In this document: positions 23,358 to 48,430 of the stretch, in pieces
How the letters are laid out: the number at the start of each line of letters is the position of its first letter
Position numbering within the stretch: position 1 is the stretch's first letter
Origin: Deltaproteobacteria bacterium
Lineage (GTDB): Bacteria > Myxococcota_A > UBA796 > GCA-2862545
NCBI GenBank assembly: GCA_006226595.1
Contig: SBGP01000020.1
Coordinates: 1-64,000 of the forward strand
Direction: 5' to 3'
Length of the DNA: 64,000 nt
Made by a program: the position numbers and the translations under genes
The notes under the pieces: model-generated
What the model was told of the DNA's origin: nothing
The model's database searches: none
What the model saw: the letters and a program-made list of their open reading frames with translations, nothing else

Positions 23358-23395
23358 GCACGCTCCCGGGCGCAGAAAACGCGGAGGATGCCCCG

Positions 23396-23884
23396 ATGTC
23401 AAGCACCGCGTTACCGCGGGTCCGAGAGGTGGATGTGGCCCCCTGCGTGTTCTGCGGCATTCTCGGCGGCGAGCTCGAAGCGAGCATTGTGCTCGACGAG
23501 CCCGAAGTCCTCGGATTTCTCGACCTGCACCCGTGGTCGACGGGGCACGCGCTGCTCGTGCCGCGCCGCCACGCACAGCACCTCGACGAGCTCACCGAAG
23601 CCGAGCGCGCGAGCCTGATCGAGGCCGGCAACCGGGTGTCGCGGGCGATGCGTGACGCCGGCCTCGCCGACGACGTCCACTTCGTGATCAACGACGGCCC
23701 TCGCGCGGCTCAGACCGTGCCTCACGCGCACCTGCACGTGGTGCCCCGCTCGCGACACGACCGCCGGCGCATGCTGGCGCGCCTGCTCACGGCGATGGTG
23801 CCTCCCCTGTGGAAGCGCTCCCGCGACGACCTCGACCGTACAGCGGCCACCCTGCGCGAGGCGCTGGCTCAGGCGCCGAAGTAG
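23396..23884 (+). CDS. HIT-family nucleotide hydrolase/transferase
   Basis: 162 residues. The histidine triad HAHLHVVP (110-117) binds the alpha phosphate of nucleotides; the N-terminal CVFC (17-20) is typical of Hint/diadenosine-type members that bind zinc. Probably hydrolyses AMP-lysine-like or dinucleotide substrates. ATG at 23396 with GGAGG upstream. Its 3' end overlaps the convergent sulfotransferase gene by 16 bp. Confidence 0.9.
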   Translation: MSSTALPRVREVDVAPCVFCGILGGELEASIVLDEPEVLGFLDLHPWSTGHALLVPRRHAQHLDELTEAERASLIEAGNRVSRAMRDAGLADDVHFVINDGPRAAQTVPHAHLHVVPRSRHDRRRMLARLLTAMVPPLWKRSRDDLDRTAATLREALAQAPK

Positions 23885-24816
23885 GCGTCGTACGGGAAGT
23901 CGCTGCCCAGCGCGGCAAGGTCCTCGCGACACACCCGGTCGATGGCCGCACGCTGCTCCTCGGTGAGCAGCGCGGAGGCATCCCCGCGCTTGCCGGTGCG
24001 GATCATCACGGCACGCTCCCCCATCACCGAGGGCACGGGGGTCGCGAACAGGTGCTCGTGCGCCTTCATCCACGCGAAGCTGCTCTTCTCGACCACCGCG
24101 GCCCGCCCGGCATCATCGAGCTCGACGCCCATGAGCGCCGCCACCCGGTCCACGCAGGTGCCGAGATTGTCCTTGAGCTCGCCGAAGGTGAGCACGAGCA
24201 CGTTGTCGCGCTCGCGCAGCGCCCACCATCCCGCGGTGTGCGTTGCCCACGACCCCAGCGGGAACCGCCGCTCGACGAAGCGGGCGTACCAGTCGTCGAG
24301 GTCCGGAGGCGCTCCCCAGATGCCGTCGATGATGCCCCCGACGAAGTGGAAGCTCGACGTGAACACGTCCTTGGGGTCACGCACGACGACCACGTAGCGA
24401 GCCTGCGCGGCGTAGGGCACGTGCTCGGCGGGCACGTGGGTCTTCACCGCACGAAGCCCCGTCCGGGAGCGCGGCGGCGTGTCCAGCGGCGCCACCTGGG
24501 AGGGCACCGGCGCCTCGGGCCACGGCACCAGCGCGTGGATGTCGTCGAACTCGGCCTGACCGTAGTCGGCGATCTGGGTGACGATCTGCATCATCCAGTT
24601 CGTGCCCGACTTCGACACCGTGCACACGAACACGTCCGCGGGGCTGGGCTCGTAGCCGCGAAAGACGAAGGACAGCGCCTTCTCCGAGCCGATCGCGAGC
24701 ATCCACATGTAGAAGCGCGTCAGCGGGCGCCCGAGGCCGACGCGGCCGACGAACCACAGGCTCCGGAGCACCACGCGCTCCCCAAAGGTCGGCGGCTTCG
24801 CCACTAGCGCACGCAC
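23869..24816 (-). CDS. Sulfotransferase
   Basis: Transfers sulfate from PAPS to a hydroxyl or amine, cytosolic type, 315 residues. The 5'-phosphosulfate loop is SKSGTNW (68-74) and the 3'-phosphate site VVVRDPKDVFTSSFHF follows near 140-155, the pattern of the Sulfotransfer_1 family. Start GTG 24816; a second GTG four codons on is possible. A sulfatase gene lies two genes away, so sulfate ester formation and removal may be linked, which is inference. The stop overlaps the HIT gene. Confidence 0.87.
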   Translation of the reverse strand: MRALVAKPPTFGERVVLRSLWFVGRVGLGRPLTRFYMWMLAIGSEKALSFVFRGYEPSPADVFVCTVSKSGTNWMMQIVTQIADYGQAEFDDIHALVPWPEAPVPSQVAPLDTPPRSRTGLRAVKTHVPAEHVPYAAQARYVVVVRDPKDVFTSSFHFVGGIIDGIWGAPPDLDDWYARFVERRFPLGSWATHTAGWWALRERDNVLVLTFGELKDNLGTCVDRVAALMGVELDDAGRAAVVEKSSFAWMKAHEHLFATPVPSVMGERAVMIRTGKRGDASALLTEEQRAAIDRVCREDLAALGSDFPYDAYFGA

Positions 24817-28240: not shown

Positions 28241-29194
28241 ATGCTCCATCTCCTCGGACCCCAACGCCGCGACCCCAACCTCGTCGAGGTGCTCGATCAC
28301 CTCGGGGTGTCGGGGCCGTTGGTCGCGATCACGGCTGGCTGGCGCCACGACGAGGACGAGCTCGGGCCCCTCGAGGCCGCTGTCGGCAAGGTCAGCCACC
28401 TGCCGCTGTACCGCTGGTTCGACGAGGTGCCCGATCAGGCGCCGGATATCGCCAAGCTGTACAAGGAGCGCCAGTCGCGCATCGTGCGCTTCAAGGAGCT
28501 GTACCGCCTGCGCATGAGCATGGGCCTCGACACGGTGCGCGCGCTGGTCCGCACCAAGTCCGCCGAGCCCGGTCTCGTCGAGCAGCAAATCCAGAGCGCC
28601 TCGGAGGTCGTGCGCGGCATCGACCGCGAAGCGCTCGCCGCCGTGGACGCGGTGCGCGCGGACTACTCGCGGCTCGTGCAGCGCTTCGAGTGCCCGGCCA
28701 TCGCCGCTCGACGCGACGAGGTCGATGCGGCCATCGAAGACGCCGGCGCCATCCTCGTCGCGGGCGGGCACGTCGCCGTCCTCCGCAACCGCATGCTGTT
28801 CTTCGGCGCGGAGCACCCGATTCGCCGGGCCATGGAGCGCGGTGTGCCCGTGCTCGCCTGGGGCGCCGGGGCCATGGTGATGACCCGCCGCATCGTGCTG
28901 TTCTACGACGACGCCCCCGACGGCTCCGCCGACGCCGAGATCCTCGATCACGGCCTCGGGCTCGCCCCAGACCTCGTCGCCTTGCCTCACGCGCGGGAGC
29001 GCCTGCGCCTCGGTGACGCGGCACGCGTCTCGGCTCTGGCCCGCCGCTTCGGACCCGACGCGTGCATCGCGCTCGAGAAGGGCGCGTGGATTCGCCATAC
29101 CTCGGCGGGCTGGCGCAGCCGGGGACCCGCAGGCAGCGCGTCCCTGCTCCTCGCCGACGGTCGCGTGGACGACGTCCCGCGGGAGGTCGCATGA
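28241..29194 (+). CDS. Peptidase S51/cyanophycinase-fold protein lacking the catalytic serine
   Basis: 317 residues. The C-terminal half follows the S51 class I amidotransferase fold: AGGHVAVLRNRMLFF, then VLAWGAGAMVM (204-214), where family enzymes have a WSAGA/TSAGA nucleophile elbow, then LPHARERLRL (248-257), placed like the family histidine segment. Gly208 occupies the nucleophile Ser position, so hydrolysis is unlikely; binding or a different reaction is possible. Residues 1-150 contain a helical insert with many charged residues. ATG 28241. ATGA overlap with the esterase gene. First gene of the ATP-grasp/hydrolase run. Confidence 0.75.
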   Translation: MLHLLGPQRRDPNLVEVLDHLGVSGPLVAITAGWRHDEDELGPLEAAVGKVSHLPLYRWFDEVPDQAPDIAKLYKERQSRIVRFKELYRLRMSMGLDTVRALVRTKSAEPGLVEQQIQSASEVVRGIDREALAAVDAVRADYSRLVQRFECPAIAARRDEVDAAIEDAGAILVAGGHVAVLRNRMLFFGAEHPIRRAMERGVPVLAWGAGAMVMTRRIVLFYDDAPDGSADAEILDHGLGLAPDLVALPHARERLRLGDAARVSALARRFGPDACIALEKGAWIRHTSAGWRSRGPAGSASLLLADGRVDDVPREVA

Positions 29195-30336
29195 CCCGGG
29201 TTCTCGACCTCCTCAAGCAGATCGAGGCGGATCCCGCCCACACCACGCACCTCGTCGAGCACTTCCTCGAGCGCTTCGGCAGCCCCGTGGTCCAGGAAGG
29301 CACCGCCACCTTCTTCCTGCGCGGTCCCTACGAGTCCGTCGCGCTCGTGCACTGGGTGTTCGGCCTCGAGTCGCGCATCCCCTTCTCTCGCCTGCCGGGC
29401 ACCGACGTGTGGTCGCTGTCGGTCGAGCTGCCCGAGCACGCCCGGGTCGAGTACAAGTTCGAGGTCATCCTCAACGGCCACCGCCACTGGATCAAGGACC
29501 CCAACAACCCGCACCTCGCCTTCGACCCCTTCGGCGCGAACAGCGTGTGCCGGATGACCGGCTACGAGGACCCGAGCTGGGTCGAGCCCGACGAGGACGC
29601 CCGGCGCGGCACGCTCGACGGCTTCACCGTGAACAGCACGGTGTTCGGCGACCAGCGGGACGTGCGCATCTGGGTGCCCCACGAGTACAAGGCCCACAAG
29701 GAGTACCGACTGCTCGTCGTCCACGACGGCGACGACTACCTGCGGTTCACCGGCCTCCAGACCATCCTCGAGAACCTCGTGCACCGACACGAGATGATGC
29801 CGGTCGTCGTGGCCCTCATCAACGGCGTGAGCCGTAACGAGGAGTTCGGCGCGAACCCGCTCCATCCCCGCTACATCATGGAGGACCTGGTGCCGGCGCT
29901 CGAGAAGCGCCACCGCCTGTCCCCCGACCCCCGCGACCGCGGGCTGATGGGCGCGAGCTTCGGTGGCGTGGCCAGCCTGTGGACCGCGTGGAACTACCCC
30001 GGCGCCTGGGGTCAGCTCGTGCTCCAGTCCGGCAGCTTCGTATTCACGGACATCGGCCACCACGGCCGCAGCCCACTGTGGGACCCGGTCGTCGCCTTCG
30101 TGAACGAGTTCCGCCAGGACCCGGGTCGCACCGGTGCCCGCGTCTTCCAGTCCTGCGGCGTGTTCGAGAGCCTGATCACGTACAACCGCTCGCTCGTGCC
30201 GCTGCTCCGCGACGCTGGTGTCGACCACAAGTTCGTCGAGAGCCGGGACGGCCACAACTGGATCGGCTGGCGCGACCGCCTGCGCGAGGGCCTGACCTTC
30301 GCGTTCCCCGGCCATCTGTGGATGACCTATGACTGA
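29191..30336 (+). CDS. Esterase-D/Fes-type alpha/beta hydrolase with N-terminal E-set-like domain
   Basis: 381 residues. Residues 40-125 look like a carbohydrate-binding-module-48/early-set domain (KFEVILNGHRHWIKDPNNP), as in enterochelin esterases; residues 140-375 form a putative esterase with nucleophile Ser256 in GASFGG and a late His in DGHNW. No signal peptide. It would hydrolyse an ester or amide-ester in the cytosol. ATG overlaps the upstream stop and the next gene overlaps its 3' end by 8 bp: a tight operon. Confidence 0.82.
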   Translation: MTRVLDLLKQIEADPAHTTHLVEHFLERFGSPVVQEGTATFFLRGPYESVALVHWVFGLESRIPFSRLPGTDVWSLSVELPEHARVEYKFEVILNGHRHWIKDPNNPHLAFDPFGANSVCRMTGYEDPSWVEPDEDARRGTLDGFTVNSTVFGDQRDVRIWVPHEYKAHKEYRLLVVHDGDDYLRFTGLQTILENLVHRHEMMPVVVALINGVSRNEEFGANPLHPRYIMEDLVPALEKRHRLSPDPRDRGLMGASFGGVASLWTAWNYPGAWGQLVLQSGSFVFTDIGHHGRSPLWDPVVAFVNEFRQDPGRTGARVFQSCGVFESLITYNRSLVPLLRDAGVDHKFVESRDGHNWIGWRDRLREGLTFAFPGHLWMTYD

Positions 30337-31717
30337 GGCCGGTCGCACCGCGCTGTGGGCAGGCATCGGTCTGCTCGCCGCAGGTGCGCTGGCCGCCGGA
30401 GTGCTCGCCTCACGCGCCCCGGCTCCCCCCGAGATCCCCGACCTCGACACGCTGCCCGCCCTCCCTCGAGCCACGGCCGAGGCGCGCGACGTGGTGCTCG
30501 TCATCGGCTGCACCGTGCGCAAGGACGAGCTCACGCCGTACGGCGGGCTCGCGAAGACCACCCCGTTCCTGGCCGAGCTCGCCGCCCGCGGCGCTCGCTT
30601 CGAGGACGGCATCGCGGCCGCTCCGTGGACCAAGGCCGCGACGACCGCGCTGATCACCGGCCAGCATGCAGCATCGGTCGGCATGGTCGAGCCCACACGC
30701 GGCACGAACCGCCGCGTGCTCGCGAGCGAGGTGACCACCCTCGCCGAGCGCTTCGCCGAGGCGGGCTACGCGACGGTCGGGGCCACCGCGAACCCGAACC
30801 TCAACGCCGTGTTCGGCATGGACCAGGGCTTCGCGCGCTACCTCGAGGGCAGCGCGCTGTGGGCGGGCGGCCACCAGGCCAAGGTCGACGGTCGTGTGCT
30901 CGCGGGTTCGGTCATCGACGCGGTCCGCGAGGTCCCAGGCACCGCCCCCCTGTTCCTGCAGGTCATGTTCGTCGACGCCCACGCGCCCACCGACACCCCG
31001 GACCCGTCCGGTTGGGCCGAGGACGGCGCTCCCCAGGCACTCGCGAGCTATCGCGGCGACCTGAACCGCCTCGACACGGCGGTGCGCACGCTGTCCGACG
31101 CGCTAACCCGCGCCGGACGCGATCCCGAGCGCGCGTACTTCGTGTTCGTCTCGGATCACGGCGAGGGGCTCGGCATCCCGACGCACCACGGCACCGCCCA
31201 CGGCGAGACCACCTACCGGAGCACCGTCGCCATGCCGTGGCTGGTCACGGGTCCCGACGTCGCGAGCCGGACGATTCCCGGACTCGCCTCCCAGGTCGAC
31301 GTGACGCCCACCCTGCTCGGCCTTGCGGACATCGAGGGCTACGAGGGTCCGGGCCAGGACCACAGCGCGCTGATCCGCGGTGAAGGCCAGCGCACCGCCC
31401 GCGACCGTGCCTTTGTCGACACCTGGTTCGCCGAGCGGCAACGCGCCGCCGTGTACACCGACGACACCGCGTGCCACCTCGAGCTGCAGAAGACCGAGGA
31501 CACGACCCCGGGTCGCGTCTTCCCCGCCTGCTATGACCGCCGCACCGATCCGTGGGCCGAGCACCCCCTCGCCGATCCGCCTCGGGCGCTGATCAAAGAA
31601 GCGTGGCAGTGGCGGAAGGACCGGGAGTCCGAGTACGCCGCGTGGCCCCACACGCGAAACGCGAAGCTCGACGACGACGAGACCCGTATGCTCGAAGCGC
31701 TCGGCTACGTGCAGTAG
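30329..31717 (+). CDS. Membrane-anchored sulfatase/phosphatase-fold protein with altered active site
   Basis: 462 residues: one N-terminal membrane helix (about 8-28) then an alkaline-phosphatase-fold domain. In relatives the first strand reads VDTLRAD; here it is IGCTVRKDE, putting Cys where a metal-binding Asp is expected. The nucleophile segment is APWTKAATTALITG, with Thr and no C/S-x-P-S-R. FVSDHGEG keeps the later metal Asp-His. It is therefore not a formylglycine sulfatase; a phosphotransferase-like or inactive role is possible. Overlaps the esterase gene by 8 bp, implying coupled synthesis. Confidence 0.75.
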   Translation: MTEAGRTALWAGIGLLAAGALAAGVLASRAPAPPEIPDLDTLPALPRATAEARDVVLVIGCTVRKDELTPYGGLAKTTPFLAELAARGARFEDGIAAAPWTKAATTALITGQHAASVGMVEPTRGTNRRVLASEVTTLAERFAEAGYATVGATANPNLNAVFGMDQGFARYLEGSALWAGGHQAKVDGRVLAGSVIDAVREVPGTAPLFLQVMFVDAHAPTDTPDPSGWAEDGAPQALASYRGDLNRLDTAVRTLSDALTRAGRDPERAYFVFVSDHGEGLGIPTHHGTAHGETTYRSTVAMPWLVTGPDVASRTIPGLASQVDVTPTLLGLADIEGYEGPGQDHSALIRGEGQRTARDRAFVDTWFAERQRAAVYTDDTACHLELQKTEDTTPGRVFPACYDRRTDPWAEHPLADPPRALIKEAWQWRKDRESEYAAWPHTRNAKLDDDETRMLEALGYVQ

Positions 31718-31796
31718 TGCGATCCGTCACGTCGTCGACCCGAGACGACGAGCCCCCGCGGGGTTAGCCCTCCGCGCTGATTTCCTCGGAGCATCC

Positions 31797-33038
31797 ATGG
31801 ACTCCTCCGTCCGACACATCGGACTGTCGCTCGGCGCCGACCTCTGCTGGCCCGCGGCCTTCGAAGACCTGCTCAACGCGCTCGATCTCGACATCGAGCA
31901 CGACGGCGAGCGCATGACCTTCTCGGTCGAGCGCGTCACCGTGCACCCCTTCGATCTGCAGTACAAGCCGAAGTACGACCTCGTGATCGACCGCATCACC
32001 CACTGGTTCAACACCAGCCGCGAATGGGTGAAGAAGATCGCGCTGATGGACGGTGTGTACGTGCTCAACAACCCGTGGGCCATCCAGTCCATGGAGAAGC
32101 ACACGTCCTACGCGGCGATGATGCGGCTCGGCATGCGCATCCCCAAGACCTGGATGATCCCGCCGAAGGAGTACGAGGACGAGGGCGACACCAAGGTCAC
32201 CGTGCAGCGCTACAACCGCCTGTTCGACCTCGCCAAGCTCGGTGAGGAGATCGGCTACCCCGCGTTCCTCAAGCCCTACGACGGCGGCGGCTGGGTCGGC
32301 GTGACCCGCGTCACCGACAGCGCGTCGCTGCACGCTGCCTACGACAAGAGCGGCAAGCGCGTGCAGCACCTGCAGGCCGCGGTCCAGGGCTGGGACCGCT
32401 TCGTGCGCGGCGTCGGCATCGGGCCGCAGGTCATGCTCGCGAAGTACGACCCGGACCAGCCGCTCCACGGGCGCTACGTGCCCGACGAGGCCCCGCTCAC
32501 CGGCGACGAGGCGTGGGAGGCGCGGGCGACGACCAAGGTCATCAACGCGTTCTTCCGCTGGGACTTCAACTCGTGCGAGATGCTGCGCGCCGACGGCGAG
32601 CTGCATCCCATCGACTTCGCGAACGCGTGCCCCGACAGCCAGGTCACGAGCCTGCACTACTACTTCCCGCAGCTCGTGCTCAACCTGCTCAAGTGGTCGA
32701 TCTTCTGCGCCGCCACCCGCCGCAAGCCCTCGCTGTCGATGGACTGGGAGAGCTTCTTCGCCATCGCCGCCGAGGACATCCCCTACCGCGACAAGCTCGT
32801 GAAGTACGAGGCCCTCGCGGACGCCCACTTCGACACCGCCGCCTTCGACGCGTTCTGTGCCGAGCACCTCGGTGATCTGCCGCGCGTGGCCGATGCCTAC
32901 TTCGCGAGCGACCGCTTCCGCGAGGTCACCCGAGCCAAGGTCGCCGCGCTGTACCCCGAGCACGAGATCGACGTGTTCACCAACCACTTCTTCGACCAGG
33001 TCCAGACCTGGCGCGCGCACCACCCGGTGGAGAGCTGA
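31797..33038 (+). CDS. ATP-grasp ligase A (413 residues)
   Basis: ATP-grasp fold enzyme expected to form an acyl-phosphate and join it to an amine or thiol. Visible: YPAFLKPYDGGGWVGV (ATP-grasp lysine strand and glycine loop) in the middle, and LHPIDFANACPDSQ, the Mg-binding acid/Asn segment, later. It differs in sequence from the other three ATP-grasp proteins nearby and has a long C-terminal extension with DWESFFAIAAEDIPYRD. Substrates unknown. ATG 31797; its TGA overlaps the ATG of the following esterase (TGATG). Confidence 0.8.
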   Translation: MDSSVRHIGLSLGADLCWPAAFEDLLNALDLDIEHDGERMTFSVERVTVHPFDLQYKPKYDLVIDRITHWFNTSREWVKKIALMDGVYVLNNPWAIQSMEKHTSYAAMMRLGMRIPKTWMIPPKEYEDEGDTKVTVQRYNRLFDLAKLGEEIGYPAFLKPYDGGGWVGVTRVTDSASLHAAYDKSGKRVQHLQAAVQGWDRFVRGVGIGPQVMLAKYDPDQPLHGRYVPDEAPLTGDEAWEARATTKVINAFFRWDFNSCEMLRADGELHPIDFANACPDSQVTSLHYYFPQLVLNLLKWSIFCAATRRKPSLSMDWESFFAIAAEDIPYRDKLVKYEALADAHFDTAAFDAFCAEHLGDLPRVADAYFASDRFREVTRAKVAALYPEHEIDVFTNHFFDQVQTWRAHHPVES

Positions 33039-33766
33039 TGGAACGCCGCACCTTTGCCTGGCACAGCCCGGCCCTCGACCGCGAGATGCGCATCGCCGCG
33101 TGGGGCCACTTCGGCCGTCCGGTGGTCCTGTTCGCGACCGCCGCGAGCGACGAGCTGGACTACGAGCGCTTCAAGCTCATCCACGTGCTCAAGCCGCTGA
33201 TGGAAGCGGGCCGCATCAAGGTCTACAGTGTGAGCTCCGTCGCAGGCGAGGGCTGGCTGTCCAAGGACGCGCACCCCGGCCACAAGAGCTGGCTGCAGCA
33301 CTGCTACGACCGCTACCTGGGCGAAGAGGCATTTCCCGCCATCGCCGAGGACTGCGGCGGCTTCACGCACTTCGTCACTGCTGGCGCGTCCATCGGCGCC
33401 TACAACGCGGTGACCGCGCTGCTCAAGCACCCCGACTATGTCGACCTCGCCATCGGTATGTCCGGCACCTACGACTTCGATCGCTGGATGCACGGCCACC
33501 GCGACGAGTTCTACTACTTCAACCAGCCGATGTACTTCGTGCCCAACCTGCCCGAGGGCGCCCTGCTCGACGAGCTGCGCACCAAGCGCGTCGTGCTCGC
33601 CACCGGCCAGGGCCGCGCCGAGGCACCCGACGAGTCGCGGCGCATGAGCCAGGTGCTCGATGCCAAGGGCATCCCCAACGATCTCGAGATCTGGGGCAAG
33701 GACGTGCACCACGACTGGCCGACCTGGCGCACCATGCTGCCGATGTTCCTCGACCGGCTCGTCTAG
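33038..33766 (+). CDS. Alpha/beta-hydrolase esterase coupled to ATP-grasp A
   Basis: 242 residues, single-domain esterase with nucleophile Ser118 in AGASIGAYNA and a late HHDW histidine. No signal peptide. The ATG shares one base with the stop of ATP-grasp A, so the two are co-translated and probably act on the same metabolite: one ligates, the other releases, or transfers. It resembles the uncharacterised esterase group often placed with ATP-grasp genes, which I state from general family knowledge. Confidence 0.8.
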   Translation: MERRTFAWHSPALDREMRIAAWGHFGRPVVLFATAASDELDYERFKLIHVLKPLMEAGRIKVYSVSSVAGEGWLSKDAHPGHKSWLQHCYDRYLGEEAFPAIAEDCGGFTHFVTAGASIGAYNAVTALLKHPDYVDLAIGMSGTYDFDRWMHGHRDEFYYFNQPMYFVPNLPEGALLDELRTKRVVLATGQGRAEAPDESRRMSQVLDAKGIPNDLEIWGKDVHHDWPTWRTMLPMFLDRLV

Positions 33767-33816
33767 CCCCGCTGGCGTCTCGCCCCTCGCACAAGCTCCG
33801 AACCCAGGTTCTTCCG

Positions 33817-35034
33817 ATGCACGTGATTCTGCTCGCCCCCCACTTCCCCGCCGGCCAGCGCCGCTTCCTGCGCGCACTCAAGTCCGTGGGGGCCATGGTC
33901 ACGGGCATCGTCGACGGGCCCGTCGACACCGAGGTCAAGCACTTCCTCGATCAGATCGTCACCATCGACAACGTGACCAGCGAAGAGCAGGTCTACCGCG
34001 CCGTGCGCAAGATCCAGGACAAGGGTCCGTGGGTGCACAAGCTCGAGGCGACCATCGAGGCCCACGTGCTCACCGCGGCCCGCGTGCGCGAGCGCACCGC
34101 GATTCCCGGAACGCCCGCCGAGACCGTGCTTCGCTGCCGCGACAAGGTCCTGATGAAGACCTTCCTCAAGGAGCACGGCATTCCCTCCGCCGCCCACGAG
34201 GGCGTCGAGACCGCCGGCGAGTGCCGGGCCTTCGCCGATCGCGTCGGCTACCCGCTGATCATCAAGCCGCGCGACGGTGCGGGCAGCGCCGGAACCTACC
34301 GGGTCGACGACGACGCCGAGCTCGAGTGGGTCATCCACGAGCTCGGCATGGACCGTCGCCCCACGCCGGTCGCCATCGAGGAGTTCGTCGAGGGCCACGA
34401 GGGTTTCTACGACACGCTCACCGTGAACGGCCGCATCGTCATGGACTTCGTGTCGCACTACTACCCGAACGTGCTCCCCGCGATGCGCGATCCGGGCACG
34501 CCGGCGATGATCGTGACCAGCAACCGCATCGCGGCCGACAGCTACGGTGAGCTCAAGAAGCTCGGCGCGCAGGTCAACGACGCCCTCGGTCTCGGCACGA
34601 CGGCGACGCACATGGAGTGGTTCTTCGGTCCCAAGGGCCTGCGCTTCAGCGAGATCGGCGCCCGTCCGCCCGGCGTGAACTTCTGGGACGTGTACTGCGC
34701 CGCAAACGAGATCGACCTGTACGAGGAGTGGGCGCGGGCCGTGTGCTACGGCGACGTGCACGCCATGCCTTCCCGCCGCTACTCCGGCGGCCTGATCTCG
34801 CTGCGCCCGACCCGCCAGGGCACGGTGCACGGCTACACCGGCGTCGACGAGGTGTACCGGAAGTACGGCGCCGGAATCGTCAAGGCGCATCTGCCTCCGG
34901 TGGGCAGCCGCACCCAGCCGATCGAAGCCGGCTACCTCGCCAACGCGTGGCTCATCGTCCGGCACCCCGACTACGATGGATGCAAGGCGGTGATGGAAGA
35001 CATCGGCCGCACCCTCCGCATGCACGCAGGATGA
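33817..35034 (+). CDS. ATP-grasp ligase B (405 residues)
   Basis: Carboxylate-amine ligase-like ATP-grasp protein. It begins MHVILLAPHFPAGQRRFLRA (pre-ATP-grasp Rossmann fold), then YPLIIKPRDGAGSAGTYRV, AIEEFVEGHE and the Mg/phosphate site THMEWFFGPKGLRFSEIGAR with PPGVN. Same length and architecture as ligase D, and alignable with C. ATG 33817. Its stop overlaps the next hydrolase start (ATGA). Target carboxylate and amine unknown. Confidence 0.85.
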   Translation: MHVILLAPHFPAGQRRFLRALKSVGAMVTGIVDGPVDTEVKHFLDQIVTIDNVTSEEQVYRAVRKIQDKGPWVHKLEATIEAHVLTAARVRERTAIPGTPAETVLRCRDKVLMKTFLKEHGIPSAAHEGVETAGECRAFADRVGYPLIIKPRDGAGSAGTYRVDDDAELEWVIHELGMDRRPTPVAIEEFVEGHEGFYDTLTVNGRIVMDFVSHYYPNVLPAMRDPGTPAMIVTSNRIAADSYGELKKLGAQVNDALGLGTTATHMEWFFGPKGLRFSEIGARPPGVNFWDVYCAANEIDLYEEWARAVCYGDVHAMPSRRYSGGLISLRPTRQGTVHGYTGVDEVYRKYGAGIVKAHLPPVGSRTQPIEAGYLANAWLIVRHPDYDGCKAVMEDIGRTLRMHAG

Positions 35035-35984
35035 GGGCGCTCCGCCTCGCGAACGCACTGCTCCGCGCGACGTGGCGCAGCACCACGCGAGGAAAGCCCC
35101 GTTCCAGCTGGAGCGGGAGCGAGACCTTCACCGTCCACCTGCTCCAGGCCTTGCTCCAGTCCACAGTCGGACGCGGCGCGGCGGTCCAGCGTGCAACCCT
35201 CTCCGAGCCCGCGCAGCGGCTGCCTTCGGGGGTGCGTGAGCACGAGGAGTCTTGGGGTGGCCGCCGAGCCTGGCGCTGGATCCCCGAGGACGCCCACCCG
35301 ACGCGGCTCGTCGTGCACTTCCACGGCGGCGGCTACGTCATCGGCTCGCCGCTGGAGAACCGGGCCTACCTCGCGGTGCTCGCGCGACTGCTGCGGGTCG
35401 AAGTGGTGAGCATCGCCTACCGCCTGTGCCCGGAGCATCCACACCCCGCCGCCCACGAAGACGGTGAGGCAGCGGTTCGAGCGCTGGTGGACAGCGGTGT
35501 GGCACCCGGAGACATCGTGCTCACCGGGGACAGTGCCGGAGGTGGCGTCGCGCTGGGCACCGTCTACCGCCTCCGTGACAGCGGTGGCCCGACCGTGGCT
35601 GGCGCGGTGCTCGGCTCGCCGATGGTGGACCTTCGCGCCGAGTCCGCCAGCTACGCCGCGAATGCCGCGTCCGACTACCTGATCCGGCCGCTGGTGGTGG
35701 AGTGGGCCCGGGCCATGGGCGTCGCCGACAGCGACCCGAGCGTGAGCCTGGTGCTGGCCGATCCGACCGGCCTGCCACCCCTCCGGTTCCTGGCGGGAGA
35801 CGCCGAGATCTTCCGCGACGACGTCGTGGCCTGCGCCGAGCGCGCGAAGGCCGCCGGGGTCGACGCCGAGGTCGTGGTCGGCGCAGACGCCGTGCACTGC
35901 TGGTACAAGTCGCCTCGGTTGCCGGGACCTTCCGGCGGGGCCGAGCACGTGGCCGCGCAGATCCGCGGGCTGTACCAGCGCTAG
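35031..35984 (+). CDS. HSL-family alpha/beta hydrolase
   Basis: 317-residue hormone-sensitive-lipase-type esterase. Oxyanion motif HFHGGGYVIGSP, nucleophile Ser168 in TGDSAGGG, an acid in the FLAGDAEIF segment and His in ADAVHCWY. Positively charged N-terminus (about 30 residues with seven Arg) but no clear signal. ATG overlaps the stop of ATP-grasp B, the third ligase/hydrolase overlap in this run. Its stop shares a CTAG with the stop of the convergent ATP-grasp C. Confidence 0.86.
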   Translation: MRALRLANALLRATWRSTTRGKPRSSWSGSETFTVHLLQALLQSTVGRGAAVQRATLSEPAQRLPSGVREHEESWGGRRAWRWIPEDAHPTRLVVHFHGGGYVIGSPLENRAYLAVLARLLRVEVVSIAYRLCPEHPHPAAHEDGEAAVRALVDSGVAPGDIVLTGDSAGGGVALGTVYRLRDSGGPTVAGAVLGSPMVDLRAESASYAANAASDYLIRPLVVEWARAMGVADSDPSVSLVLADPTGLPPLRFLAGDAEIFRDDVVACAERAKAAGVDAEVVVGADAVHCWYKSPRLPGPSGGAEHVAAQIRGLYQR

Positions 35985-37195
35985 GCGTAGCGGATCTTCA
36001 CCGTGCGGACGAGATCGAGCACCGCCTGCTCGACGACCGTCGTGTCCGGGTGGCGAACGATGGCAAAGCCCTCGCCCTCGTAGCCTCCAGCCTTGGGCAT
36101 GCCGACCTTGGGCAGCTGCGTCTCGACCACGAGGTGGCCCATCTTCTTCTGGGCCTCGTCCAGTCCGTCGATGCGTGCCACGCGTCCGCGGCCGGTGCCT
36201 CGCAGGAAGGCGATGCCGACCGCGTAGCGACGCTCGAAGGGACCGTCGTGCTCCCGGTCGACCACCGCGCGGGCCCAGGCCCGGTGCAGGCTCTGGTCGT
36301 GGGCGTAGCTCATGAGCTTCACGATCTGCGCCCCAGGTGGACGCGCGGCGATCTCGCCGATGGCCATGCTCCCGTCGGGACGACGGAACCACTCCATGTG
36401 GGTCATGCCCTCGCACAGGCCCAGAGCCTTGATGGCCTTGCGACCCGCCTCGCGGGCGTCGTTGTACTCGGGGCTCGAGATGTCGCGGGGCAGCACCACG
36501 ATCCACTGCATCCAGTCGTTCCGCACCACATCCAGCGGGCCCGGGTAGTAGCGGCCGATGGACTCGAAGACGGGCGTACCGCCGATGCTCACGGTCTCGT
36601 AGGTGAACTCGCGGCCCGCGAGGAACTCCTCGGCGAGCATGGTCCGGCCCGGTCCCGGGCGAACCTCGGCGAGCGCCTGGTCGAGCTGAGCCCGGTCCTC
36701 GACCTTGTAGGTCGCGCGCGAGCCCGCTCCGGCCGGCGGCTTGAGGATCAGCGGGTAGCCGACCTCTTCGGCGAGGGCGTACGCATCGGCCGCGCTGGTC
36801 ACGGTCCGGCTCGCGGCGCAGGGCAGCCCATGCTGACGGAACACCGCCTTCATGCGCGCCTTGTCGCGGAAGTTCTGGGTGACCTCGACGGAGGGCCCGT
36901 AGATCCCGAGCTCCTCACGGGCGATGGCGACCTGGACCTGCAGGTCCTCGAGGATGCCGAGCAGGCGGTGAATCTCGCCGTACTGCTCCTGGAGATAGCG
37001 GGCGCCGCGCACGATCATCGCCGGGTCCATCGCATTGGGCACGGTGACGATGTCGTCGAACAGCGCGCGGTCCGCGCCCTGGGGCGCCTGCTGGAACAGG
37101 CCGAGCAGGCGAATGTTCGACAGACCGCGCAGGGCCCGCGCGAACAGCATGGTCGTTTCCATGGGGAAGGGCGCGGTGAAGATCACGTTGCGCAT
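35981..37195 (-). CDS. ATP-grasp ligase C (404 residues)
   Basis: Minus-strand paralogue of ligases B and D: MRNVIFTAPFPMETTMLFAR start, YPLILKPPAGAGSRATYKV, MLAEEFLAGREFTYETV, then THMEWFRRPDGSMAIGEIAA with RPPGAQ. All core ATP-grasp residues appear present. Start ATG 37195 with GGAGG and GGTGG upstream. It is divergent from ligase D, with a 155-bp shared promoter region that holds an 8-bp dyad. Confidence 0.86.
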   Translation of the reverse strand: MRNVIFTAPFPMETTMLFARALRGLSNIRLLGLFQQAPQGADRALFDDIVTVPNAMDPAMIVRGARYLQEQYGEIHRLLGILEDLQVQVAIAREELGIYGPSVEVTQNFRDKARMKAVFRQHGLPCAASRTVTSAADAYALAEEVGYPLILKPPAGAGSRATYKVEDRAQLDQALAEVRPGPGRTMLAEEFLAGREFTYETVSIGGTPVFESIGRYYPGPLDVVRNDWMQWIVVLPRDISSPEYNDAREAGRKAIKALGLCEGMTHMEWFRRPDGSMAIGEIAARPPGAQIVKLMSYAHDQSLHRAWARAVVDREHDGPFERRYAVGIAFLRGTGRGRVARIDGLDEAQKKMGHLVVETQLPKVGMPKAGGYEGEGFAIVRHPDTTVVEQAVLDLVRTVKIRYA

Positions 37196-37236
37196 ACACC
37201 ACCTCCGAGGAGCCCGGGCCTATCCCAACCGCAGGC

Positions 37237-37266
37237 GGTGTCCACGGTCTCCGCGCGATGGACACC
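37237..37266. promoter_or_regulatory. 8-bp dyad between divergent ATP-grasp genes
   Basis: GGTGTCCA (37237-37244) and TGGACACC (37259-37266), perfect inverted repeat with a 14-base spacer, in the 155-bp divergent gap. Read outward on each strand, TGGACA resembles a -35 box, so this may be a regulator site or back-to-back promoters. Confidence 0.4.
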
Positions 37267-37350
37267 GAACCCCCTCCAAATTGCGCGAATCTCCACGTCG
37301 ACCGCCGGTCATCGCCGAGGTACGTCGGCACGTCCTTCGTGAGGTGCTCA

Positions 37351-38568
37351 GTGGACGTCGTGTTCATCGCCCCCGCCTACCCGGCCGAGATGCCCGAGTT
37401 CACCCGCGGGCTCGCCGCCGCCGGCGCGCGCGTCTTCGGGATCGGCGACACGCCGCGCCACATGCTCGCTCCCCGGGTCAAGGAGGCGCTGTACGACTAC
37501 CTGCAGGTCCCGCGCATCCTCGATGAGGACGACGTGCTCGAGCGCGCCCACGCCTGGCTCCGCGGCCGCAACATCGACCGGGTCGAGTCGCAGTGGGAGC
37601 CCACCGTGATCCTGGCCGCCCGCATGCGCGAGCGCTTCGGGCTCCCCGGCATGTCCGTCGACACCGTGCTCGGCTTCCGCGACAAGCAGCTGATGAAGGA
37701 CCGCATCGCCGCCGCCGGCCTGCGCGTTCCCTACGCGTACAAGTGCCGCACCGAGGCCGCGATGCGCGAGGCCGCCGAGAAGATCGGCTTCCCGCTCATC
37801 GTCAAGCCCATCGCCGGCGCCGGCAGCGCCGACACCTACCGGGTCGACGACGCGGCCATGTTCGACAAGGTGATCCGCGCGGTGAAGCGCGTCGAGGTCG
37901 TCAGCGTCGAGGAGTTCGTCGACGGCGAGGAGTTCACCTACGACACCGTCTGCGTGGATGGCGCGCCGATCTACGAGAACGTCGCTCAGTACCTCCCACG
38001 GCCGCTCATTGCGCGATCCATCGAGTCCATCGACCCGATCATCTGCACGGTTCGCGACCTGACGCAGCCCAAGCTGCAGGACGGACTCAGCCTCGGCCGC
38101 GGTGTGCTCGGCGCCCTCGGCATGGGCACCGGCTTCACGCACATGGAGTGGTACCGCAAGGCCGACGGCGAGGTGGTGTTCGGCGAGATCGGCTGCCGCC
38201 CTGGCGGCGCGCGGCTGGTCGACCAGATGAACTACACCTCCGACCAGGACCTGTTCCTGGGCTGGGCTCAGGCGGTGCTCGGTCACCGGCCCCGACTCGC
38301 CCAGCCCCGCAAGTACAACGCGGCCATCGTGTTCAAGCGGGCCAAGGGTCAGGGCCGCATCACGCGCATCGAGGGGCTCGATGCGTTCAAGGCCCGCTAC
38401 CACGACCGGATCTGCGCCATCGACCTGCTGCCGGTCGGTACGCACCGCCGCGACTGGACCCAGACGCTGATCAGCGATGGCTGGCTCATCGTGCGCCACC
38501 CCGACTGGAACGAGGCCATCGCCACCGCCGAAGCCGCCGCGAAGGACATCCGTATCTGGGCGCAGTGA
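37351..38568 (+). CDS. ATP-grasp ligase D (405 residues)
   Basis: Starts GTG 37351 ([20 protein letters not shown]), GAGG 6 bases upstream. Then [37 protein letters not shown] and [20 protein letters not shown] with RPGGAR, aligning along its whole length with ligases B and C. Three such paralogues within 5 kb suggest successive couplings of different building blocks. No carrier protein or NRPS gene is present nearby. Confidence 0.86.
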
Positions 38569-38612
38569 TCCGCCCACGCAGCCCTCGCGTAAGCTTGGGG
38601 TACGGAGTGACG

Positions 38613-39725
38613 ATGAAGCACCTGCCCCTGTTGGCCGCCCTCGCGCTGTTCGCCTGCACCGCGGACGATGACGACGACACCGCCGTCGACACCAGCACCG
38701 AGACGGACACCGACACCGACGCGGACGCGGATGCGGATACCGACGCGGATGCGGATACCGACGCGGACGCAGACACCGACGCGGATGCGGATACCGACGC
38801 GGATGCGGACACCGACGCGGATGCGGACACCGACGCGGATGCGGACACCGACGCAGACGCCGACACCGACGCGGACGCGGACACCGACGCAGACGCCGAC
38901 ACCGACACAGACGCCGACACCGACGCGGACGCGGACACCGACGCGGACGCGGACACCGACGCAGACGCCGACACCGACACCGATGCCGACACCGACACCG
39001 ACACCTGCGGTGACTGCGGTGCGGGGACCTGTGCCGGCGGCCAGTGCGTGTGCGACGCGTTCTACGTCGCGCTGAGTCCGACCGCCGCCGAGGCCCTGTC
39101 GAGCACGAACTACGCGAGCGGAGACCACGCGATCGGCCTGAGTGCGGACAACACCAGCGCCCAGGCGCAGTCCTCTGCGAGCGGCGGCGCCCGGGAGATC
39201 GTCTACGACCCCGCCACGGGCGTCCTCGACTACGCGATCGAGTACGGAAGCGACTTCGGCTACACCGACCTCACCGGCGACTACAGCAACGCGCACGTCC
39301 ACGGGCCCATCGCCGTGCAGTACCCGAGCGTGAACACCAACGCCGGGGTGGTGTTCGCCATCACCCACACCGCCGGAAGCAGCGCGCGCACCGGAAGCTT
39401 CGCTGGCACCCGCACGCTGAGCCAGACCGAGGCCGACAACCTCGCCGCGAACCTGCTGTATGTCAACGTCCACAGCGGATTTGTCGGCGGCGGCGAGATC
39501 CGAGGCCAGCTGGTGCCGCTGTCGACCGGACGCACCTGCGCGCCGGGAGCGAGCTGCGCCCCGCTCTGTGAGTGCAGCGACGGTACGGTGTGTCACGACG
39601 ACCTGCCCCACGTGGACACGTCGAGCTGCGACACCAATGGCGGATGCGCGCTCTCCTGCGACGTCGGGTGGACCGACGACGACCGTGACCCGAGCAACGG
39701 TTGCGAGGCTGCCATCCGGCGCTGA
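38613..39725 (+). CDS. CHRD-domain lipoprotein with (Thr-Asp-Ala-Asp)n stalk
   Basis: 370 residues. Lipoprotein signal ending at Cys15 (LFACTAD), an Asp run, then about 100 residues made almost only of Thr, Asp and Ala (31-131), a Cys-rich segment, a CHRD domain (about 148-305; [12 protein letters not shown] and [10 protein letters not shown]) and a Cys-rich tail. CHRD domains occur in secreted chordin-like proteins. The acidic stalk should hold the domain away from the membrane and may bind calcium. ATG 38613, GGAGTGA upstream. Confidence 0.85.
38703..39005 (+). repeat. 18-bp tandem repeat (TDADAD stalk)
   Basis: 101 codons of Thr/Asp/Ala only, built from near-identical 18-bp units such as ACCGACGCGGATGCGGAT with some 12-bp variants. 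Runs of identical units make it a likely site of length change by slippage, always in frame. Confidence 0.9.
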
Positions 39726-39837: not shown

Positions 39838-41220
39838 GTGAACCGCACTCCGATCTTCATCCTCGCCGGCGGCAAGGGTTCCCGACTCGCGCCGCTCACC
39901 TGCCACCGCGCGAAGCCCGCGGTGCCCTTCGCGGGGCGCTACCGCATCATCGACTTCGTGCTGAGCAACGTCGTGAACTCCGGCTACGGCCAGGTCTACG
40001 TGCTCACGCAGTTCATGGCGACCAGCCTGATCAAGCACCTCTCCCGCAACTGGCACCTTCAGGGCATCCAGCAGTTCATCGAGGTGGTGCCCGCCCAGAT
40101 GCGCCGCGGCTCGCATTGGTACCTCGGCACCGCCGACGCCATGTGGCAGAACGGCAACCTGCTCCATCAGGCGCGCGCGCAGCATGTCGGCATCTTCAGC
40201 GGCGACCACGTGTACAAGTTCGCCATCGACCAGATGCAGGAAGTCCACGAGGACAGCGGCGCGGCGCTGACCATCGCCGCCATGCCCGTGCCCCTCGAGG
40301 AGGCCACGGCCTTCGGCGTGATCCAGGTCGACAGCACCGGGCGGATCACCGGCTTCCAGGAGAAGCCGAAGAACCCGACGCCCATGCCCGGCGACCCGGA
40401 CCGCGCGCTGGTGAGCATGGGCAACTACTTCTTCCAGCGCACCCGGCTGCTCGAGTACCTCGAGGACGATGCCGACCGCGAGGACTCCCACCACGACTTC
40501 GGCAAGAACATCATCCCGAAGATGCTCGAGGACGGCCTGCACCTGCAGGTCTACGACTTCGGCACCAACCGGATCCCCGGCGAGCGCGAGAGCACGGTCC
40601 CCTACTGGCGCGACGTCGGCACGCTCGAGGCGTACTACCTGGCGAACATGGAGGTTCGCAGCTCGCTGCCGGCGCTCAACCTCTACAACCGCAACTGGCG
40701 CATCCGCACCGCCCAGCGCGACTACCCGCCCTCTCGCCTGGTGCGCCACTCGCACAGCCACGCCGTATCGAGCGCCATCGACTCGCTGATCTCGGAGGGC
40801 TCGATCATCTCGTCCTCCACCCTCGACCGCGTGCTCGTCGGCTACGACTGCTTCGTGCACGCCGGCTGCTACCTGCAGGAGTCGCTGATGCTCTCGGGCT
40901 GCGACATCGGCGAGGGTGCGCGCATCCGCGGCGTGCTCATGGACAAGAACTGCCGCATCGAAGCCGGCGCCGAGATCGGCATCCACGAGGCCACCGACCG
41001 AGAGCGCTTCCCGTTCCGCACCGAGAGCGGCCTGGTGGTGCTGCCCAAGGGCACCGAGGTCCCGCGCAGCGGCCCGATCCGCTTCGCGCACGACATGGCG
41101 CTGATCATGAAGAACGACCCGGACACCAAGCAGGTCCTCGAGGAGTGGGAGGGTCGCTACCTGGTGGCCGACCGCTCGCGGCACAGCCACGACTCCTCCG
41201 GTCCCCGGTACAAGGACTAG
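39838..41220 (+). CDS. glgC: Glucose-1-phosphate adenylyltransferase
   Basis: Makes ADP-glucose from ATP and glucose-1-phosphate, the committed step of bacterial glycogen synthesis; 460 residues. Nucleotide-binding loop [14 protein letters not shown] near the N-terminus, [29 protein letters not shown], and a C-terminal left-handed beta-helix. Start GTG 39838 with GAGAGGG upstream. Two base pairs separate it from glgA, so they are one operon. Confidence 0.95.
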
Positions 41221-41222
41221 AC

Positions 41223-42644
41223 GTGCGCATCCTCCACATCTCCAGCGAGTGCGCGCCGTGGGCCAAGTCCGGCGGCCTCGGCGACGTCGTCGGTGCCCTG
41301 CCCGATGCCCTGCTCCAGGCCCGCCCCGACGCTCAAGTCGCGGTCGTGCTCCCGCTGTACGCGAAGGCCAAGGCCGAGCTGAACAAGCGCGGCATGTCCC
41401 TCGAGGACACGGGTGTCGTCGCCGACGTGGCGATGCACAGCGTGACCGCACGCGTGCGCTTCCTGCGCCTCGCCCGCGAGGGCCGGGCGACGGTGTTCTT
41501 CGCCGCCTGTGATGCCGCCTTCGGACGCGACGGCCTGTACGGCTACAGCGACGACGGCGAGCGCTTCATCCTGCTGTGCAAGGCCACCGTCGCCATGGCC
41601 GGCAAGCTCATGGGCGGCCCGCCGGACATCCTCCACACCCACGACTGGCACGCAGCCCTCGCCGCAGCCCTCGCCAACACCAGCGCCCGCGGGCTGATGC
41701 CGCGCACGAAGAGCCTGGTGACCATCCACAACCTCGCCTACCAGGGCATCGTCTCCAAGGACCTGCTGCCGGTGAGCGGGCTCGGGTGGGAGCACTTCCA
41801 CCTCGACTGCGCCGAGTGGCACGACAACCTGTCCCTGCTCAAGGCCGGCATGAGCCTGGCCGACGCGGTGACCACGGTGTCGCCGACCTACGCCCGCGAG
41901 ATCCGAACCCCCGAGTTCGGTGCCCAGCTCGACGCCTTCCTGCGGCGACGGCGCATCTTCGGCATCCTCAACGGCATCGACACCGACGAGTGGAACCCCG
42001 AGTCCGACCCCCACGTGGCGGGCTCGTGGACCGCCGACGACCTTTCCGGCAAGCAAGAAGCCCGCAAGGCACTGCTCGAGCTGTGCAAGTGGGACGACCA
42101 CCCCGGCGTGCCCACGTTTGGCGTCGTCAGCCGCATGACCTCCCAGAAGGGCCTGGACCTGCTGCTTCCGCTGGTCGGCGAGCTTCACGGCATGGGCGCG
42201 CGCCTGGTGGTGCTCGGCACCGGAGAGCCCGGCCTCGAGGAGGGCTTTCAGCTCGCGGCCCGGCACTACCAGAGCAACGTGCGCACCGACATCAACTTCG
42301 ACGTGCCCCTGTCGCACAAGATCATCGCCGGCTGCGACGGCCTGCTCGTGCCCAGCCGCTTCGAGCCGTGCGGACTGACGCAGATGTACGCGATGCGCGT
42401 GGGCACCGTGCCCATCGTGCGCGCCACCGGCGGCCTCGCCGACACCGTCACCCCCGATCGAGGCTTTGCCTTCGAGCACAGCACGGTCCAGGGCCTGCGC
42501 TGGGCCATGCGCACCGCCGCCCACACCTACCGGGAGCAGCCCGGCCGGTGGAAGGCCATGCAGCAGAACGGCATGCGTCACGACTGGAGCTGGAAGGCCT
42601 CGGCGGCGCGCTACCTCGCGCTGTACGACGCCCTACTCGCGTAG
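41223..42644 (+). CDS. glgA: Glycogen synthase (ADP-glucose)
   Basis: GT5 glycosyltransferase extending alpha-1,4-glucan from ADP-glucose; 473 residues. Signatures KSGGLGDV (15-22), THDWHAAL, TIHNLAYQG, SRMTSQKGLDLL and the C-terminal PSRFEPCGLTQMYAM with RATGGLADTV. Start GTG 41223, two bases after the glgC stop. Its end overlaps the convergent GH57 gene by 12 bp. Confidence 0.95.
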   Translation: MRILHISSECAPWAKSGGLGDVVGALPDALLQARPDAQVAVVLPLYAKAKAELNKRGMSLEDTGVVADVAMHSVTARVRFLRLAREGRATVFFAACDAAFGRDGLYGYSDDGERFILLCKATVAMAGKLMGGPPDILHTHDWHAALAAALANTSARGLMPRTKSLVTIHNLAYQGIVSKDLLPVSGLGWEHFHLDCAEWHDNLSLLKAGMSLADAVTTVSPTYAREIRTPEFGAQLDAFLRRRRIFGILNGIDTDEWNPESDPHVAGSWTADDLSGKQEARKALLELCKWDDHPGVPTFGVVSRMTSQKGLDLLLPLVGELHGMGARLVVLGTGEPGLEEGFQLAARHYQSNVRTDINFDVPLSHKIIAGCDGLLVPSRFEPCGLTQMYAMRVGTVPIVRATGGLADTVTPDRGFAFEHSTVQGLRWAMRTAAHTYREQPGRWKAMQQNGMRHDWSWKASAARYLALYDALLA

Positions 42645-43961
42645 CCCGGCGACCGTGGGCAGCAGCTCCGTGAGGTCCGGCCCGCCCGCCTCGGTGACGA
42701 GCTCGACCGCGCGCTGCGCATAGCGCAGGATCTGCGTCGTCTCGAGCCCACCCGGGTCCGCAAAGAACCACCCGCAGCTGGTGAACATCATCAGCCGGTG
42801 GTTCTGCACCTCGAGCAGCAGGCGCAGCGCCTCGTCCTCACGCCCGGCAAGCGGGTCCTGGCCCGTGTCGAGGCCCGAGTCGCGCAAGAGCGTGTGGATG
42901 TACTGGTCACGGAACGCCCACGGGTCTTCGCCGCTGGCGGCGGCGATGCGGGGCATCGACCACTCGTCGATCGCGTCGCGCAGTGCATTCAGCCCGTCGC
43001 GCAGCTTGGGTCGCCAGCGCCCGTCCTCGGTGCCGCAGCCGCAGTCCCGCGACCAGCGCCCCACCCCGTGGCTGCAGCTCCAGCTCGTCGGCTCGCGGAT
43101 GCCCATGACCTCGGTGGGCGGGTGCTGCGCGAGCCACGTGCCGTGCGAGACGACGGGCACGCCGAGCTCGCGCAGGGTGCGGATGCAGTACGCGAGCGCC
43201 ATGTCGCCGTGGCGGTGGTGATGCCCATAGGACTCGCCGTCGGTGGCGAGGTGCACGAGGCCCGTTCCGCTCGCGAGGCGATGTGCCATGCCCTCGCCGT
43301 TGTCGAGCCAGCGGTCGAAGGCCACGCCGCGGGACGGGCGACCGTCGTAGAAGAAGGCCGCGATGTGGCGCCCGTCGGGGAGCGGCACGAGCCGAGGATG
43401 GTCGGTCTCGACGTCCTCGCCCTGCGCGGACTGGTGCGGCGCGAGGATGGTGAACTTCACCCCCTCGTCGGCGAGGGCAACCAGCGTGGGCGTGTCGACG
43501 GCGGTCTCCGGGCACCAGAGCCCCTCGGCCTTGCGACCGAAGCGCGCCTCGAAGTCCGCGAGGCCCCAGCGGATCTCGGTCCGGCGGTCCTCTTCGGAGC
43601 ACAGCGGCAGGATGGCGTGGTGATAGCCCTGCGCGATCGCAGGCCCGTGCCCGCTACGGGCTGTCGCGGCGCGGTCGGCGGCGACGATGCCGTCGTGCAC
43701 GTCCCGAGCCTCGTCCCACATCCAGCGAAGCAGCGTCGGCCCCACGTCGTAGGCCAGGTGTTCCCAGCAGTTGACGCGCTCGACCACCTCGCCGTGCGGA
43801 CCGACGATCGGGGCATCGAGCAGGGGGCGATAGCACTCCGCAGTGATGCGCTGGTTCCAGTCCCAGAACGGCGCCGCGGACGGCTGGCGCTCGATCTGCC
43901 CGGTCCATGGGCTCTCGCGTGGCGGCTGGTAGAAGTGTCCGTGAATGCAGACAGAAGGCAT
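42633..43961 (-). CDS. Glycoside hydrolase family 57 enzyme
   Basis: 442 residues of the GH57 fold, which includes alpha-amylase, amylopullulanase and branching enzymes. Conserved blocks: HGHFYQPPRE at the N-terminus, GLWCPETAVD with the expected catalytic Glu, then a late LATDGESYGHHH block holding Asp/Glu and His ligands. Given glgC-glgA beside it, a role in alpha-glucan branching or trimming is likely; GH57 branching enzymes exist and no GlgB gene is seen here. ATG 43961; its start is 34 bp from the divergent GH13-GH77 gene. Confidence 0.85.
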   Translation of the reverse strand: MPSVCIHGHFYQPPRESPWTGQIERQPSAAPFWDWNQRITAECYRPLLDAPIVGPHGEVVERVNCWEHLAYDVGPTLLRWMWDEARDVHDGIVAADRAATARSGHGPAIAQGYHHAILPLCSEEDRRTEIRWGLADFEARFGRKAEGLWCPETAVDTPTLVALADEGVKFTILAPHQSAQGEDVETDHPRLVPLPDGRHIAAFFYDGRPSRGVAFDRWLDNGEGMAHRLASGTGLVHLATDGESYGHHHRHGDMALAYCIRTLRELGVPVVSHGTWLAQHPPTEVMGIREPTSWSCSHGVGRWSRDCGCGTEDGRWRPKLRDGLNALRDAIDEWSMPRIAAASGEDPWAFRDQYIHTLLRDSGLDTGQDPLAGREDEALRLLLEVQNHRLMMFTSCGWFFADPGGLETTQILRYAQRAVELVTEAGGPDLTELLPTVAGLRE

Positions 43962-43995
43962 GGGCGGGAGTGTACTTCCGGAGTAGGTGTCCGCG

Positions 43996-48132: not shown

Positions 48133-48378
48133 GCACCCAGCGTAATCCCGCGAGCCGCGCACGGGAAGCCCAGCGCGCGACGCCCCCCGGGCTGCCGTCG
48201 GTTCCGCCACGCCGCAGCGCCGGCGACGAGCCCGATGGACAGGCACTCTCCGGTTGGCGTGGCCGCTTCCGACGCCGTCGAACGCGCCGCTCCGTGGACG
48301 ATGCACCATCGCACCCACAGGGCGTGTGCGAAATAGCCCACACCAAACGGATGGCCCGCTGTTCATGCGCCTTCACAG

Positions 48379-48394
48379 TGGCACGGCCCTTGCT
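48379..48394 (+). promoter_or_regulatory. Consensus sigma-54 promoter before the CBS-UspA operon
   Basis: TGGCACG-GCCC-TTGCT matches the sigma-54 consensus fully; GG (48380-48381) and GC (48392-48393) are ten bases apart. Predicted transcript start near 48405, about 26 bases before the GTG at 48431. The 298-bp gap upstream has room for activator sites and holds no other gene. Confidence 0.85.
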
Positions 48395-48430
48395 CCATCC
48401 CGAGTGAACCCCCCACCCCGTGGAGGCCAC

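Follow-up and report, generated by a model that had tools for sequence, protein, structure and literature searches.

Genes at the locus

The window analyzed here, a 64,000-nucleotide stretch from a Deltaproteobacteria bacterium (assembly GCA_006226595.1, contig SBGP01000020.1), carries between positions 28241 and 38568 a block of ATP-grasp ligase and hydrolase genes, seven of which form a gene system conserved across distant phyla. Genes in the window were called by codon usage, and fold assignments were supported by Pfam and NCBIfam scans. The block opens on the forward strand with an S51-peptidase-fold protein of 317 residues (28241..29194; Pfam Peptidase_S51, E 1e-8) and a Fes-like esterase of 381 residues (29191..30336; Pfam Esterase, E 3e-20). 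The RimK/LysX-type ligase LigA (413 residues, 31797..33038, forward) is assigned from a weak Dala_Dala_lig_C match (E 0.0025) together with its model fold, and is followed by Est, a CE1-like alpha/beta hydrolase of 242 residues with a weak Pfam esterase match (33038..33766, forward). Three ATP-grasp proteins of the L-amino-acid-ligase type complete the core set: LigB (405 residues, 33817..35034, forward), LigC (404 residues, 35981..37195, reverse) and LigD (405 residues, 37351..38568, forward).

Two more genes are interspersed with these on the forward strand, encoding a sulfatase-fold membrane protein (30329..31717; Pfam Sulfatase, E 4e-32) and an HSL-type alpha/beta hydrolase (35031..35984; Pfam Abhydrolase_3, E 1e-44); both are local insertions and not members of the system. 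Downstream, also on the forward strand, are GlgC, a glucose-1-phosphate adenylyltransferase (39838..41220; NF002023, 498 bits against a cut-off of 458) that is an occasional partner at related loci, and GlgA, a glycogen synthase of family GT5 (41223..42644) that is a frequent one.

A first-pass annotation made from the DNA letters had described four ATP-grasp ligases, three of them paralogues of 404-405 residues, together with esterase-fold hydrolases and a sulfatase-fold protein, and gene calling, Pfam and NCBIfam bear this out, as do, for the ligases, the identities between the paralogues and the LigA model. It had also noted overlapping junctions of 1-8 bp, and four such same-strand overlaps were found (S51/Fes 4 bp, Fes/sulfatase 8 bp, LigA/Est 1 bp and LigB/HSL 4 bp). 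The strict co-expression that it drew from these junctions does not follow for all four ligases, because LigC lies on the opposite strand. A promoter and terminator scan gave no signal above that of shuffled sequences.

Conservation of the gene set

Related loci were collected by a contig scan with LigA as the sole query, the best 80 of 329 coding relatives being retained, and partner genes at each were counted by tblastn of the window proteins against the 80 loci. These counts are lower limits, since 48 of the 80 loci reach 17 kb or more and 32 fall short of that length. LigA was most often accompanied by the Fes-like esterase (73/80), the S51-like protein (64/80) and Est (64/80, from a later recount, since overlapping GCS2 hits had masked Est and made the earlier count too low). 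LigB was found near LigA at 55 of the 80 loci, LigC at 33 and LigD at 32. The S51-like protein, the Fes-like esterase, LigA and Est occurred together at 54 loci, and all four ligases at 26. Record titles assign the loci to Myxococcota, Planctomycetota, Acidobacteria, Actinomycetota (Ilumatobacter, Acidimicrobiia), Gammaproteobacteria (Pseudomonadota) and others, though titles of metagenome-assembled genomes can mislead, as with "Klebsiella pneumoniae" for locus L081 and "Rhodobacterales" for L069.

Gene order is conserved as well as gene content. The S51-like and Fes-like genes were adjacent on the same strand in all 64 loci with both, overlapping in 57, and LigA and Est were adjacent on the same strand in 47 of 51. 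LigC and LigD lay within 300 bp of each other in 23 of 25 loci, on the same strand in 10 and on opposite strands in 13. At L069, the locus nearest to the window, no gene intervenes between the Fes-like gene and the LigA gene after it, or between LigB and the LigC gene after it. Because the same partners recur in other genomes, the set is more than a chance association, and S51, Fes, LigA, Est, LigB, LigC and LigD constitute a conserved gene system across distant phyla. The first-pass annotation had stated in advance that homologues scattered singly through other genomes would count against its block; the linkage proved to be conserved across phyla.

The sulfatase, the HSL hydrolase, the CHRD-domain protein and a WS/DGAT protein were considered as members and rejected, as none had a homologue at E<=1e-5 in 100 loci (the 80 plus 20 fetched later, some on the same contigs as the first 80); the search was weak for the CHRD protein owing to its low-complexity part. 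Their absence from related loci, for which the gene order of L069 may be compared, marks these genes as local additions. The extent first proposed for the block thus holds for its core genes but not for the sulfatase and HSL hydrolase, and it left out the nearby GlgC and GlgA. The CHRD-domain protein lies between LigD and GlgC (38595-39725, forward) and contains a long Asp/Thr/Ala-rich repeat. Upstream of the block, a second sulfatase (21924-23333) adjoins a sulfotransferase (together 21924-24804, reverse), and homologues of this sulfatase occur near LigA in 3 of the 80 loci (L077, L081 and L082). Farther upstream, a 1267-residue protein with bacterial TSP3 repeats (17467-21270, forward) adjoins a secretory lipase gene (16018-17364).

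The ATP-grasp ligases

Family alignments combined the window protein with a subset of its orthologues, from 43 of 80 loci for LigA, 33 of 64 for S51, 27 of 71 for Fes, 28 of 51 for Est, 23 of 31 for LigC, 25 of 54 for LigB and 24 of 31 for LigD. LigB, LigC and LigD are paralogues with 33-34% pairwise identity over about 408 columns, and LigA is only distantly similar to them. In a maximum-likelihood tree of 63 rows, built from every second orthologue and with row own_C55 disregarded, each lay to one side of a branch (support 99/100 for LigB, 97/100 for LigC and 82/65 for LigD) and included several phyla. By this phylogeny, the three are separate orthologue lines. A fifth gene of the L-amino-acid-ligase type, 44% identical to LigC, is found outside the block in the same genome (G000:C55:16474-17682, reverse; locus L002).

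Searched with hmmsearch against solved structures, the LigB, LigC and LigD profiles had the L-amino acid ligase 4wd3 as their top match (E 1e-25, 2e-30 and 5e-31, respectively) and also matched BL00235 (3vot) and BacD (3vmm). The LAL_C2 C-terminal domain was weakly detected by Pfam in LigB and LigD. Judged by these best solved relatives, LigB, LigC and LigD probably join amino acids; the first-pass annotation had allowed that they might turn out to serve unrelated housekeeping reactions, and the type found is instead that of L-amino acid ligases. What sets them apart from the known enzymes is that three parallel orthologue lines occur here in one neighborhood with esterases and GlgA.

LigA was modeled with AlphaFold2 (pLDDT 89.7) and is clearly an ATP-grasp protein. 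Its best structural match is RimK (5zct; Z 21.1, rmsd 2.8, 264 residues aligned), followed by ArgX and LysX at Z of about 19 (ArgX 3vpb, Z 19.3), enzymes that act on protein carriers. LigA differs from these closest folds in about 100 extra, mostly helical C-terminal residues and in an identity of only 15-18%, and no LysW-like carrier was found. The search for a LysW-type gene covered the small open reading frames (ORFs) of the loci and yielded none that was conserved except apparent shadows of larger genes, although a remote target would escape it. LigA scores 32.1 bits against rimK_fam (NCBIfam), far under the cut-off of 143.4, and it is therefore RimK-like yet outside the curated family.

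The hydrolases and the S51-fold protein

The catalytic residues of both core esterases are conserved, with Ser256 and His355 of the Fes-like protein invariant in 28 of 28 aligned rows and Ser118 and His225 of Est, which is CE1-like, invariant in 29 of 29. A model of the Fes-like protein matched the enterobactin esterase Fes over its full length (Z 34.0 over 345 residues). Foldseek placed both enterobactin esterase and CE1 esterases with CBM48 close to it, the TM-scores being higher for Fes. In Pfam scans of 28 members, Enterochelin_N was detected in 26, CBM_20 weakly in 10 and CBM_48 weakly in 7. The likeness to Fes extends to the conserved Ser and His, but no siderophore synthesis or uptake genes were recognized among the conserved neighbors scanned.

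The protein originally called cyanophycinase-fold does have the S51 fold by Pfam, but not the catalytic serine. Of the 34 rows aligned, 29 keep Ser in the nucleophile column, whereas the window protein and that of L069 have Gly. The window protein, which lacks the catalytic Ser of the S-A-G-A-type motif, scores 18.5 bits against NCBIfam cyanophycinase, under the cut-off of 126.6. A profile of the S51-like family found no match in the PDB at E<=0.1. With Gly in place of the nucleophile, a peptidase role for the window protein is doubtful.

Linkage to glycogen synthase

GlgA was found in 36 of the 80 loci and GlgC in 5. Of the 33 loci with both GlgA and LigB, 22 have the two on one strand and no more than 300 bp apart. 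The assignment as glycogen synthase is supported by TIGR02095 (glgA), the cut-off of which (328) is exceeded by the window protein at 502 bits and by that of locus L089 at 528 bits. The window GlgA is also the only GT5 gene found in its genome, being the sole PF08323 match there.

Among 282 genomes of the phylum, a GT5 gene was present in 77 of the 80 that have a LigA orthologue and in 113 of the 202 that lack one (Fisher p 8e-13); 9 of 89 LigA-matching genomes were counted as lacking it, as they contain only remote paralogues of 30-35% identity. Inside the family and order of the window's genome, the corresponding figures were 31 of 33 with LigA and 6 of 16 without. GlgA and LigA lie on one contig within 28 kb in at least 19 LigA genomes, and in 16 of these they are 3.4-4.9 kb apart.

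In a tree of 58 GlgA proteins, from which row L211 (273 residues) and stretch L212 were left out, 17 of 20 linked copies grouped in one clade (100/100). This clade spans Myxococcota, Planctomycetota and Pseudomonadota and includes 3 further rows, two of them from genomes without LigA, and the remaining GlgA copies from genomes with LigA mostly fall outside it. A single origin of linked GlgA was rejected as a general claim, because the tree needs 5 changes of the linked label and another clade holds the copies of the window, L069 and L074. The position of these three implies that the linkage arose more than once or that the GlgA of the cassette was replaced, and that the linkage in the window is a separate one.

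The stretch that follows GlgA in the window (42633-48844) holds a GH57/DUF3536 protein on the reverse strand, then a GH77 protein of 1223 residues that also matches alpha-amylase weakly, and, at 48431-48844, a CBS-pair protein.

Accessory genes and the search for a precursor

Neighbor clusters at the 80 loci were built from an ORF selection that included some antisense shadows (clusters c11, c12 and c19). Accessory genes found in other lineages include a GCS2-CBS ligase (36/80 loci; for example L109:8139-10445), an AspA/AstE-like protein (14/80; L124:16812-18170) and an N-formylglutamate-amidohydrolase-like protein (12/80; L125:4123-5136), all of which fit amino-acid chemistry. A search for a GCS2-type ligase in the window's own genome returned CBS-domain hits only.

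The initial statement that the block has neither precursor peptide nor carrier agrees with the wider survey, in which no conserved small ORF of this kind was found among 2013 small ORFs of the 80 loci, although short divergent precursors could escape such a search. Candidate precursor or carrier peptides were rejected, as the positions of the small-ORF clusters show most of them to be antisense or out-of-frame shadows of the genes for Est, the GCS2-CBS ligase and the N-formylglutamate-amidohydrolase-like (FGase-like) protein.

Relation to described systems

Iyer et al. 2009 reportedly described ATP-grasp amidoligase neighborhoods in which non-ribosomal ligases occur with assorted peptidases and hydrolases, as in the present set. 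The seven-gene set itself appears undescribed in the titles and opening lines of abstracts of mainly non-subscription literature, a scope that did not take in the work of Iyer et al. Graspetide clusters, which make ribosomally synthesized and post-translationally modified peptides, share ATP-grasp ligases with the present loci but differ from them in that no precursor peptide gene was found here. Glycogen is not among the terms found in the searched portion of a graspetide paper (PMC8939145). We have not filed the locus under a known system in view of the absent S51 nucleophile, a LigA score under the RimK cut-off and a search that found no graspetide precursor.

Proposed function and alternatives

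We tentatively favor an uncharacterized pathway in which ATP-grasp ligases would act in succession to build a short conjugate of amide-linked amino acids, and which would operate jointly with alpha-glucan (glycogen) metabolism. Successive ligation without a nonribosomal peptide synthetase (NRPS) was already suggested by the first-pass annotation and remains the leading hypothesis, with its membership corrected and the ligase families in its support. The gene set, its conservation, the enzyme families and the intact catalytic residues of Fes and Est are the parts of this proposal that sequence supports. The conserved system thereby comprises two esterases and four enzymes of amino-acid-ligase type, LigA included, all four of which probably join amino acids. 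The enzyme families suggest a short amide conjugate as product, while the gene linkage, the dedicated GlgA clade and the co-occurrence point to its tie with alpha-glucan.

In such a pathway, LigB, LigC and LigD may attach one amino acid or amine each, different for each ligase, and the RimK-like LigA may use an acidic amino acid to cap or extend the chain. The Fes-like protein and Est would act on an ester of the product or of its carrier, by cleavage or transfer, and the S51-like protein could bind the product, or trim it in those lineages where the serine is kept. GlgA may supply an alpha-glucan that bears the conjugate, or make a carbon store that is co-regulated with it.

Several observations weigh against this proposal. 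Every step past "ATP-grasp ligase" is assigned by family, and many loci, the ends of which are often cut, lack LigC and LigD. GlgA was not found in 44 of the 80 loci, some of them short or truncated, and it lies on a different contig from LigA in family f12 and in several genomes from the order to which the window belongs. The co-occurrence tests ignore shared ancestry, and the GlgA copies of the window, L069 and L074 are outside the dedicated clade. Lastly, the Fes-like model is closer to enterobactin esterase (Z 32-34) than to CE1 esterases with CBM48 (Z 26-28), which leaves it uncertain that the N-terminal domain binds glucan.

It is possible, if somewhat less probable, that the product of these ligases is a free small molecule, such as a peptide with an ester bond that the Fes-like esterase opens, and that GlgA is a neighbor without a role in it. 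The loci that lack GlgA and the genomes in which it is unlinked fit this explanation, as does the full-length match of the Fes-like protein to enterobactin esterase, which acts on an amino-acid ester, and the match of LigB, LigC and LigD to dipeptide-forming ligases. There is also a precedent in E-64, reported as a case of amide synthesis without an NRPS (PMC12568646). A bystander GlgA is harder to reconcile with a dedicated GlgA clade that accompanies the ligases in three phyla and with the co-occurrence with GT5 at the genome level, and the representatives scanned from the larger conserved clusters included no obvious transporter.

The proposed link between conjugate and glucan might also take a more specific form, in which the chain made by a dedicated glycogen synthase is decorated via esters and amides by the four ligases and two esterases, giving an alpha-glucan modified with amino acids or peptides. 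We consider this form unlikely. If true, several phyla would possess a store of mixed carbon and nitrogen or a bacterial glycoconjugate of a new kind.

Tagging of a protein or peptide, with LigA adding amino acids to a protein in the manner of RimK or LysX and the hydrolases removing them, is less probable again; RimK and LysX/ArgX are the closest folds to LigA, but LigB, LigC and LigD resemble ligases of free amino acids rather than taggers, and the 80 loci yielded no conserved small ORF that could be the carrier or target. A chance or lineage-local grouping of unrelated metabolic genes, which does describe the sulfatase, HSL, CHRD and WS/DGAT genes of the same stretch, is very improbable for the core, as it is contradicted by seven gene families recurring in conserved sub-blocks in several phyla.

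Seven families kept together across phyla usually share a biochemical task. If the ligases do act with the dedicated GlgA, the system would represent an undescribed bacterial link between nitrogen-containing conjugates and glucose storage. With LigA, LigB, LigC and LigD defined at the level of clades, the pathway becomes searchable and testable.

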